This document shows, piece after piece, positions 60,780 to 64,000 of a DNA stretch of 64,000 nucleotides (its first letter is position 1; every line of letters begins with the position of its first letter). The DNA is from Lasiosphaeris hirsuta (Eukaryota; Ascomycota; Sordariomycetes; Sordariales; Lasiosphaeriaceae). Below the pieces are notes generated by a model. The model was not told the DNA's origin and did not search any database. It saw only the letters and a program-made list of their open reading frames with translations. The DNA is taken from NCBI GenBank assembly GCA_030549175.1, contig JAUKUA010000006.1:2418001-2482000 (forward strand). Direction: 5' to 3'. The position numbers and the translations under genes are program-made.

Positions 60780-61802
60780 TTGTGGGGTTTTATGGAATGT
60801 CAAGATCCTGCTCGACGGCTTGTTGGGACGGTCCAGGGGCAAAGAATTTATGGCCTTGTGATGAAGGAATGGATGGATGAATCAGTATAGAGTTTTGTGT
60901 TCTTTTTTCCTTTTGGTTTCCACCTCTAAACTCGAAAGCTATTCTACGCCTGTTGCCGGTGCCAAGACCGCTCCACTTTGCGGCACTCTTGTGGCGGCAA
61001 GGTGTCCGACCTTATAAGTCGACTTTCCTCTGTTTGCCAAAGAAGGTCATCATGTCGGAAGCCCCGAATGTGTGCAGCAATGGGAATTGAAGTAGCTTTC
61101 CTGAGGCGTTCATGGTTAAGGATGGAAAGGGTCATTAGGTCTTTGTTGAGGTTGCACGCGCCAATCGGTAGCCCTTGACCCAGTTGATTCCCGCAAGGCG
61201 GTTTGCAAACAAGGTTGGAGTTTAGTTGGACAAGATCTCGTTGGCTAGATTGCCTTCAGCCTTGCGGTTAATTCATACCCAACACGACCGCTGAGCTCCA
61301 TAAATGCTGATTGAGCATGCTCCTGCTCTACCATCTCCTTCTCGCCATGATCATGCTCGACTAGTAATTGTCAAAAACGGTACCCAAAACCTCCATTATC
61401 CTCGACAGCGATGGCGATGTCCAACTTTGCATCTTCGAAACCCCGAATGGGGGAGCAAATCCCGGCCACAACGGCCACGATGATAACGGCCAGAATGATG
61501 GCTGGCAGTGAAACGGGGGTCGAGCTTGTCGTTTCCTCAAAGGTCCTGAGTGTATGGTATCGCCCGTTTTGGGGGTCATGTTGAAGGGCAGCTTCGGGGG
61601 AAGCGGCCGGATTCGCCAAATGTACGGCCCTATCACAGCAATACTCGCTCCGCCTGTTCGGAGACGATCCTGAAGCCGCCACTATTTTGTTCGCCCCACT
61701 CCTAGCCTTCCAAAGCAACCCAAGAAATACCCTCGCCAAGTTCATAGAGACACAACTTGAAGTATACATCTTCTCTGCCTATGGTCGGTGCCTAGTGGGT
61801 GC
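60780..61802. other. intergenic, 1.0 kb
   Basis: A minus-strand frame at 61371-61769 contains one hydrophobic stretch (LPAIILAVIIVAVVAGI) and could be part of a membrane protein or a later exon of the neighbouring precursor gene, but its start and splicing are unclear. Nothing else supported. Confidence 0.35.
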
Positions 61803-62384
61803 TCAAGCAGCAGCCTCCCGATTTATCACAGAGGTGGTTAGAACTTTGAACCACGCTGTGCATATGGGTAAGGTACCAAGCTTGAGGATAGATATAGCAC
61901 TCACTTCGTCCGCCGCCCTGCCCACGAGGTACTTGGAGGTCAACAGCGAATCGGCGTTCTTGCCTCTCTTTTCCTATTAAAGTGTTAGTAGAGTTTATAC
62001 CGGAAGAAAAGACGAGGGAATACCTTGGCAACATCCACCGGGTACTTGCAAGTCAGCAACGCGTCTACATCGTTGAGGTTCTTCCTCTTCTCCTATCCAA
62101 AGCTTGGTAAAGCTCGGACGACCTAGGAGTGACCTAGCCAAGTACCTTGGAAACCAAGTATTTCGAGGCCAACAATGAGTCGGCGCTATTCTCCCGCTTC
62201 CCCTAGGAGTCAAAGATCAATCCGGGTTGTACTTTGAATATTTTTTCATACATGCCAAGTACTTGGAAGCCAAGAGTGCACCGGCGTTGTTGTCTCTCTT
62301 TTCGGCAACGGCTTCCGGGGCCGGGGCGGGCGTGGGAGCAGCAAGGGCCAGCTGGGCAAGGACAATGATGGCGAGGAGCTTCAT
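61803..62384 (-). CDS. KEX2-processed tandem-repeat peptide precursor, probable dikaritin-type RiPP precursor
   Basis: The start MKLLAIIVLAQLALAAPTPA is a signal peptide, followed by a short Ala/Pro pro-part ending EAVAEKR. Four related units follow, about one per exon: DNNAGALLASKYLA; GKRENSADSLLASKYLVSK (62146-62202); EKRKNLNDVDALLTCKYPVD (62024-62092); EKRGKNADSLLTSKYLVGR (61905-61973). Units 2-4 begin at an exon start with Lys-Arg and share N-x-x-D-(S/A)-LL-x-(S/C)-K-Y-(L/P)-V. The last two exons are 69 nt and their introns phase 0. The first junction is unclear: an in-phase 47-bp intron (62186-62232) would remove the KR of unit 2, while unspliced reading stops at 62217. After unit 4 the frame stays open to a TGA at 61803. 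Fungal RiPP precursors (UstA, PhomA types) have this plan: signal peptide, KR-separated repeats, one Tyr per core. A UstYa gene lies next to it. Confidence 0.65.
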
Positions 62385-63699
62385 CTTGAAAAAACGAACA
62401 TGTGATTCGAAGAGAGATTGGGTATGATGTTGCGGATCTTGTATCCTATGCTGGACGACGGGGCGGAAACTTGAGTTGGAGATAAAATAAAGCGGAAGAC
62501 AAGCTTGCTTTTTATCCGTCCTTGACTTTAAGTTGGCCACCACACCTTGGTGAGGCTTGTAGCCTTCCGCATCCTGCCTTCTCATTTGGGATTTGTTTCT
62601 CATTGGCTTCAACTGGACCTCATCGGGCAGCTATCAACTTCTTTCCAGTTCGGTTGGTGGATCATCGTGGATACAGAAAGACTGACGGATCCTGCCTGTC
62701 CGCCTTTGCTTACCAACAGTACGAGCAAGCGATGCCTGCCTGTAACGCTTTTTGGAATGTGTTTATGGGTACTAGCAGTGCCGGCACGAGACTGCAATCA
62801 AGTGTGTCCTGTCCTTGGGAAGGACCTTCTCGAAGTTGGACCCTACTCTAATGCAACCCCTCGTTTGAGGCCCCCACAGTCTTGAGGTTGATGCGACGCT
62901 ACTTTTTGCTGTGCGAGGGATAGCATACCCTATCATCTAGAGTGGCATGACCTTCAGACAAGCTTTGAGCTGAATTGGGGTGAATCTAGTTACTTGAAAT
63001 GTACAGCCTTCGGCTAGCATTCTCGCTTACAGCCAGAATCGTTGCTGCTTACTTCAAGATTATGATGTTTCAGACGCTAACTGGATGACGTGATGCTCCC
63101 CTGTTTGTAGTACCACATAGCCGAGCTAGTTGTGTTGACGACAGGAGGGAAAATATCGCGCGTCAAGGTGTCAATCAAAATTTGTCTCGAATAGTTAGTT
63201 GGGTGGAATACACCTCTAAGTCTCCACATTCATACGACTGCCGCATATTTTGGTCACCGGGATTGACATCGGAGGCTTGCTTGTGATTGGCCCATGTTGG
63301 AATATTTGCCCCAAAAGACACATTCGGACTAGACATAACCAACCACGATTGCCCTGGCAAGCACTTACCAAGTCTAGAAATCAACCATGCCGCAAAGGCC
63401 GGGCACAAGATCCTGACGTCCGCCATGCCACGCCGCCCCGTCCGGGGTCGAGATGCGGGGCCATCGTCGTGGGGGTCCGCCAACAATCGATATCTCTCCT
63501 GGGTAAGTAGGTAGCTAAGGTAATTTAGGCACGTCATAGTTTGCAAGCCTCTTGCCTGGGTCTCCAGGACCCCCTCTAGATTCTCACTGAAATCCACTTC
63601 TCTCCAACTCATCCCTTTCCCTATTGTCCGACACTCGTTTTCAAAACAGTCCATCGTCGTTCGAGATTTGCTTCGAACCAAGCCCCTCACGATTTCACC
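62385..63699. other. divergent intergenic region between precursor and UstYa gene, 1.3 kb
   Basis: Contains the precursor promoter, and may hold upstream exons of the UstYa gene (a transmembrane start is expected in that family but I could not find one). The minus-strand ORF at 63175-63714 runs antisense to the UstYa exon and is not supported. Confidence 0.4.
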
Positions 63700-64000
63700 A
63701 TGACAATAAAACATAAGGCTGAAATAGCCAACCTAAAGCTTCTCAACAATTCCGAGCATGCTCCTTCCCTGGGTCTCGAGAAAGAGTACATTGTGGGCAT
63801 AGACATCTTTCATCAGCTGCACTGTCTGGTTAGTTCATTTTCTCGTCGGCCGGAGGGGGAGGCAGCAGCTAACACACGACTCCAGAACATGATCCGGAAG
63901 GACTTCTATCCCAAGCGCTATAATACCTCCATGGCCTGGCCCGATGGAACCATCGACTACATGGCATGGATCTACATAGGCAAATCCCCTCCCTCCCCCC
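63700..64000 (+). CDS. UstYa-family (DUF3328) oxidase, partial at window end
   Basis: Exon 63700-63828 reads MTIKHKAEIANLKLLNNSEH and on to YIVGIDIFHQLHCL. After an intron (63829-63885) it continues NMIRKDFYPKRYNTSMAWPD to IDYMAWIYI, and the gene then leaves the window. HQLHC is the first of the two HxxHC motifs that define UstYa/DUF3328 proteins, and the flanking D-x-FHQLHCLN-x-IRK is diagnostic. The second motif (HxDHC) should lie just beyond 64000. UstYa-type proteins are membrane-associated, probably copper-dependent oxidases that cyclise the Tyr-containing core peptide in dikaritins (ustiloxin, phomopsin, asperipin) and also act in some other pathways. The N-terminus may start in an upstream exon; the ATG at 63700 has a fair context (CACCATGA). 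Confidence 0.85.
   Translation, partial: MTIKHKAEIANLKLLNNSEHAPSLGLEKEYIVGIDIFHQLHCLVSSFSRRPEGEAAANTRLQNMIRKDFYPKRYNTSMAWPDGTIDYMAWIYIGKSPPSP

Follow-up and report, generated by a model that had tools for sequence, protein, structure and literature searches.

Do a KEX2-type repeat precursor and a UstYa-like oxidase sequence lying side by side in the ascomycete Lasiosphaeris hirsuta (Sordariales, Lasiosphaeriaceae) form a working pathway for a ribosomally made peptide, or are they what is left of one? The pair stands near the end of a stretch of 64,000 nucleotides (C11:2418001-2482000), called the window hereafter, and was described in an earlier note as the edge of a dikaritin cluster. The evidence set out below makes a new, functioning pathway less likely than a known kind of fungal peptide pathway whose copy here is fading. 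The reading that we favor, with somewhat better than even confidence, is that a lineage-specific KEX2 repeat precursor was once paired with a divergently transcribed UstYa in dikaritin style and that this pair is now decaying.

A repeat precursor with one unit per exon

The precursor gene occupies window positions 62384-61905 on the minus strand. Its ATG at 62384 opens an N-terminus that is hydrophobic and signal-like over the first ~15 residues (judged by eye), followed by an Ala/Pro-rich spacer and the first Lys-Arg (KR) pair. Four units follow, namely KR-DNNAGALLASKYL (unit 1), KR-ENSADSLLASKYLVSK (unit 2), KR-KNLNDVDALLTCKYPVDVAK (unit 3), and KR-GKNADSLLTSKYLVGRAADE (unit 4), all with KR in front and a single Tyr within the context (S/C)-K-Y-(L/P). 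Their common core is LLx(S/C)KY(L/P), which takes the form LLTCKYP in unit 3. The context had earlier been given with an additional Val at its end; all units agree with it as far as the (L/P) position, but the Val is present in units 2-4 and absent in unit 1.

The claim of a KEX2-repeat precursor with Tyr-bearing units proved to be real. At the DNA level, the region holds four direct repeats of 45 nt, spaced 101-116 nt apart and with 60-82% identity to the reference copy, whereas, when this region (751 nt) was dinucleotide-shuffled 200 times, one copy appeared in 194 cases, two copies in 6, and more in none. The further claim that the units stand in tandem in one frame has to be abandoned, as no single open frame spans them and each unit forms a separate exon (Table 1). 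The introns behind units 2 and 3 (53 and 50 nt) are in phase 0 with GT-AG borders, and unit 4 likewise has a GT donor at its end. Between exons 1 and 2 there is no in-frame GT donor; the only phase-0 donor is a GC behind unit 1 (TTG, then GCATGT), which would give a 53-nt phase-0 intron, and the 3' limit of exon 1 is uncertain for this reason.

Table 1. Exons of the predicted precursor and of the adjoining UstYa sequence, in window coordinates
Feature	Position	Strand	Remark
Precursor exon 1: start codon, signal-like peptide, Ala/Pro spacer, KR, unit 1	62256..62384	-	P0001 N-terminus identical
Precursor exon 2: unit 2, phase 0, TAG acceptor, GT donor	62146..62202	-	Skipped in P0001
Precursor exon 3: unit 3, most divergent unit, phase 0, GT-AG	62024..62092	-	Later part in P0001
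Precursor exon 4: unit 4, phase 0, GT-AG	61905..61973	-	Present in P0001
P0001 last exon, no repeat unit	61702..61791	-	P0001 sequence compared with DNA
UstYa relic, first recognizable exon, HQLHC	63700..63828	+	Profile match; no earlier exon detected
UstYa relic exon 2, Tyr-Ile at its end, GC donor next	63886..63979	+	In relatives, first His of second HxxHC there

The public annotation of the precursor, hypothetical protein B0H67DRAFT_648150 of L. hirsuta (110 aa; P0001), follows another path through the same DNA. It leaves exon 1 by a phase-1 GT donor after unit 1, passes over unit 2, enters unit 3 behind its KR, keeps the junction of unit 3 with unit 4, and then adds an extra exon that ends at 61702. 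Unit 1 is here fused to the middle of unit 3, and fewer than three units are left in the annotated model. The definition of a KEX2-repeat protein in PMC7329392 asks for an ER signal peptide and, between KEX2 sites, three or more tandem repeats with a length of 8 residues or more; the repeats of the four-exon reading agree with this definition, and those of P0001 do not.

Protein searches found no relative of the precursor beyond P0001, in keeping with the earlier remark that its core family was not recognized. The 109-residue four-exon reading gave a single match at E<=10 among 36 candidates, which was P0001 itself, and a 223-residue query, made by joining the units artificially in tandem so as to reach longer proteins, gave none at E<=10 among 7987 scored candidates; both searches require shared exact words of 5 residues, and distant relatives could escape them. 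Plasmid records contained no match, and keyword searches of the literature retrieved neither a fungal SKYLV nor a publication on the L. hirsuta genome. By these protein searches, the predicted KEX2-repeat precursor is known from L. hirsuta alone.

Comparison of the units with one another points to some constraint on the core. Across the seven codons of the LLxSKYL block, synonymous and nonsynonymous differences stand at 4:1 for units 1 and 2, 4:2 for units 2 and 4 as well as for units 3 and 4, 3:2 for units 1 and 4, 4:4 for units 2 and 3, and 2.5:4.5 for units 1 and 3. Against the neutral site ratio, P<0.05 was reached in three of the six pairs, which are not independent of one another, and in none of the three pairs tested for the stretch preceding the block. 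A synonymous lean of this kind is expected if the core is or was translated, and it provides modest evidence that the LLxSKYL core was formerly, or is still, kept as protein.

The array was also sought by its pattern, as at least three similar 12-residue peptides behind KR, in the window and in loci L001-L024 of the same genome. On both strands of the whole window, the scan returned only the precursor array, with three of its four units (1, 2, and 4). Among the loci, L011 repeats the window array, and the others are an array in L018 and a pheromone array (L022-L024, which overlap). A wider scan of loci, which allowed more sites and covered 251,173 bases, brought up one more array, in L025, together with simple-repeat matches in L020 and L025. 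The latter were discarded as simple repeats; they fall at RR sites on both strands of L020 and, in L025, on the plus strand, where they overlie the array of its minus strand.

The adjoining UstYa sequence and its signs of decay

The UstYa/DUF3328 sequence lies on the plus strand, 1.3 kb from the precursor ATG and in divergent orientation, with its HQLHC motif at window 63811-63825. Its assignment in the earlier note, made from this motif, is confirmed by the PF11807 (DUF3328) profile, which matches window 63772-63954 (C11:2481772-2481954) with 33.3 bits against a cut-off of 25, one open frame running through both exons. Exon 1 alone reaches 23.7 bits and exon 3 alone 22.6, both narrowly below the cut-off; neither exon 2 nor the C-terminal block shows a match by itself. 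The sequence continues beyond window 64000 to about C11 2482356, and its third exon, behind the GC donor, carries DHCIDSLRQSLPCHSD.

The closest database protein is P0002 (ISF_06121, Cordyceps fumosorosea), with 54% identity across 60% of the query (E 2.2e-28); compared separately, the C-terminal block is 44% identical to P0002 across 81 columns. Altogether 9 relatives were obtained from 67 candidates, the second-best at E 1.9e-9, and no Lasiosphaeris protein is among them (the search spanned about 87-278 residues), which we count with the signs of decay. A sequence search found no solved relative (best E 0.33), and an AlphaFold model of P0002, built from 9 sequences, had a mean pLDDT of 63.3, too poor for placing the lost residues described below. 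The whole genome holds 41 PF11807 matches including that of the window, all 46 candidates having been scored. By simple arithmetic on these 41 matches and a genome of 44.4 Mb, the chance that a randomly chosen point lies within 1.3 kb of a UstYa match is ~0.2%; thus, it is unlikely that precursor and UstYa adjoin by accident, though genomes hold several KEX2-repeat genes.

The neighboring UstYa copy looks like a relic. After splicing, its second HxxHC motif is YIDHC, with Tyr in place of a first His that is present in 9/9 relatives; the exon concerned contains no His, so that no choice of donor can supply it. When paralogue rows outside the window with five letters at this motif are considered, His comes first in 11/15; the remaining four are L006, L019, a weak row of L013, and L020, where an intron is read and GHV closes the upstream exon. 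The HxCR motif has become RMRR, with Arg for a Cys that is kept in 9/9 relatives and in all 18 covering pieces of this genome, which come from 12 other loci included in the scan. The first residue of HxCR was rejected as a lesion because just 12/18 paralogue pieces have His there. In addition, the frame changes between the DHCID block and the FEW block that follows it, and no intron is seen to separate them. A run of five C adjoins this frame change, and an assembly error is therefore possible for the frame change, but not for the substitutions.

The N-terminal part of the enzyme was not found either. A profile of the 9 relatives matches the relic in pieces at positions 118-244 of 246, and on the plus strand of the 3.7 kb upstream it has no match to positions 1-117. 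At other UstYa loci, 14 pieces begin at or before profile position 90, although five of them are weak (E 0.018-0.38). Since P0002 aligns with the relic from residue 42 of 222, and since P0002 as annotated also has no membrane anchor, the loss relative to the nearest relative amounts to only about 40 residues; the absent N-terminus is weaker evidence of decay than it appears.

Surroundings of the pair and other loci of the genome

A cluster edge, as proposed earlier, would lead one to look for further biosynthetic genes past position 64000. An exon-wise PF11807 search (a lower bound) revealed no second UstYa up to a distance of 500 kb, the nearest other matches on C11 being at 1953398 and 3845137, and an exon-wise profile search, again a lower bound, detected neither a tyrosinase nor an S41 peptidase on this contig within 1.3 Mb. 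Neither a methyltransferase nor a transporter occurs among the ORFs scanned with Pfam, which form a part of the local ORFs: 12/18 overlapping ORFs of at least 200 residues in window 34-61 kb, 7/37 ORFs of at least 90 residues and pieces of four more in L009 from base 1500, 7/27 ORFs of at least 100 residues in L010, and 13/21 of at least 130 residues in L021, to C11:2510000. Nearby matches above the curated cut-off are Gpi16, LUC7, CHAT, SPRY, PDDEXK_12, DUF3433 (twice), ankyrin repeats with FAR1, a phosphoesterase, and, beginning about 13 and 16 kb past the UstYa relic, a carboxylesterase and a P450. Weak matches to CBM19, DUF4501, and a Nuf2-like family remain below cut-off. Around the pair, no tailoring gene set was seen among the scanned ORFs.

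Two small secreted-looking proteins without a Pfam match also lie past the relic, at L009:3578-4021 (+) and L009:7175-7762 (-).

With the adjoining UstYa frame-changed, its motif residues lost, and its N-terminus not found, the edge of a working dikaritin cluster is unsupported, and most of the refutation tests set out in the earlier note turn out against it. Motif spotting (KR repeats and HQLHC) can detect real traces of RiPP pathways; the enzyme needs to be traced beyond the window edge before a cluster is claimed.

Elsewhere in the genome, a fuller dikaritin-type locus is seen at C11:3840093-3859710 (L025 with L014 and L015). Its precursor, L025:9093-9643 (-), has nine KR-led Tyr units by scan, and by eye its signal peptide is followed by a short intron; the locus also contains six UstYa matches, tyrosinase pieces at C11:3856711-3857442, and a weak S41 match at C11:3854439-3854645, and we take it to resemble phomopsin-type clusters. 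At C7:258000-263102 (L018:4000-9102), a UstYa match without inner stops, the L018 array, and MFS transporter ORFs share a stretch of about 5 kb; the array comprises seven KR-led Tyr-Tyr units in one frame, a stop, and then an eighth KR unit. Both precursor/UstYa loci look healthier than the pair in the window and merit more attention than it does. Eight UstYa matches are grouped on both strands at C13:706204-715414 (L012, L013), and a scan of the surrounding 40 kb showed no KR-unit array. At L017:5152-5391 (C9:4703152-4703391), a UstYa piece that covers only profile positions 176-244 of 246 stands beside a fuller one and is possibly a second relic. An alpha-pheromone-like array with three WCTIRGQSCW units is located at C1:4998377-4998679 (L022).

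Readings of the locus and comparison with known systems

If the pair is decaying, its former chemistry can be sketched as follows. The precursor would enter the secretory route, where KEX2 would cut behind each Lys-Arg, and the UstYa oxidase would formerly have closed a ring through the one Tyr that each LLxSKYL core contains. Judged by its lesions, the UstYa copy is probably inactive today; any peptides still released would thus be linear, or would owe their modification to a different UstYa encoded elsewhere in the genome. Against decay speak the 4/15 paralogue rows that likewise show no His in motif 2, one of them solely through the intron read there. The precursor, moreover, carries a gene annotation, and its core block may be under constraint; it may still work.

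The main rival holds that the precursor is a functional gene for secreted linear peptides, or for peptides modified in trans by another UstYa, the relic being a trace of the past. The synonymous lean of the core block and the annotated gene agree with it, as does the number of UstYa matches in the genome, that of the window included; PMC7329392 counts 7878 KEX2-repeat genes, of which 6120 lack a DUF3328 gene in their nearest 15. Exon 1 without an in-frame GT donor toward exon 2 and the drift of unit 3 suggest relaxed upkeep instead, and we regard this rival as serious but unlikely.

It is less probable still that the two genes are a working minimal dikaritin-type pair, in which the enzyme is divergent and the frame change an assembly error. 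The model would be asperipin-2a, which involves one DUF3328 gene (PMC7329392). Adjacency and divergent orientation would suit such a pair, the UstYa blocks to either side of the frame change are open, with 44-54% identity to P0002, and the annotated P0002 likewise has no membrane anchor. An indel error, however, cannot explain the Tyr of motif 2 or the Arg of HxCR, and the N-terminal part of UstYa was not found on the plus strand of the upstream 3.7 kb.

A doubtful further reading is that each exon offers one core, that alternative splicing selects the core peptides, and that a UstYa modifies them in trans. P0001 already skips unit 2, and a thin search of the literature found no other one-unit-per-exon layout; should the layout hold in transcripts, it would be an unusual means of varying the peptide repertoire. 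A mating-pheromone precursor has the identical plan of signal peptide and KR repeats, but the genome has a separate alpha-pheromone-like array and the window units are unlike WCTIRGQSCW, which leaves this explanation very improbable. Chance similarity without a gene, to which the deviation of the annotated model from the four-exon reading might point, is next to negligible given the shuffling result and a public annotation that has the identical start and exon 3-4 junction on the same strand.

For the decaying pair that we favor, the broadest comparison is with fungal KEX2-repeat proteins. PMC7329392 reports 7878 of them, 2560 without homologues; DUF3328 genes lie near about 22% of KEX2-repeat genes, with an average of 3.09 genes, and Tyr occurs in 65.6% of repeats with DUF3328 neighbors versus 38.2% of the remaining repeats. 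Whether repeat proteins with a conserved Tyr undergo cyclization is asked in PMC6339444. The precursor resembles such proteins in its signal-like N-terminus, its DUF3328 neighbor, its one Tyr per unit, and, in the four-exon reading, its three or more units between KEX2 sites; it differs in having divergent units with an exon for each, and in the fewer than three units of P0001. In the four-exon reading, the putative precursor fits the broad KEX2-repeat class.

Set beside P0002, the UstYa relic shares a long stretch before the second motif, whereas P0002 has both HxxHC motifs and HxCR intact in a single frame. From the dikaritin clusters (ustiloxin, phomopsin, and asperipin-2a) the locus differs as follows. 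The precursor here has no relative found in protein searches, and the UstYa is relic-like, its first HxxHC present and its second altered to YIDHC; in its vicinity the searches detected neither a further UstYa nor a tyrosinase or S41 peptidase. According to PMC12048977, some further biosynthetic genes can be absent from functional dikaritin clusters. What the locus has in common with these clusters is an adjacent UstYa homologue and a Tyr-bearing repeated core, the aromatic core residue of a repeat precursor being present as one Tyr in each of the four units.
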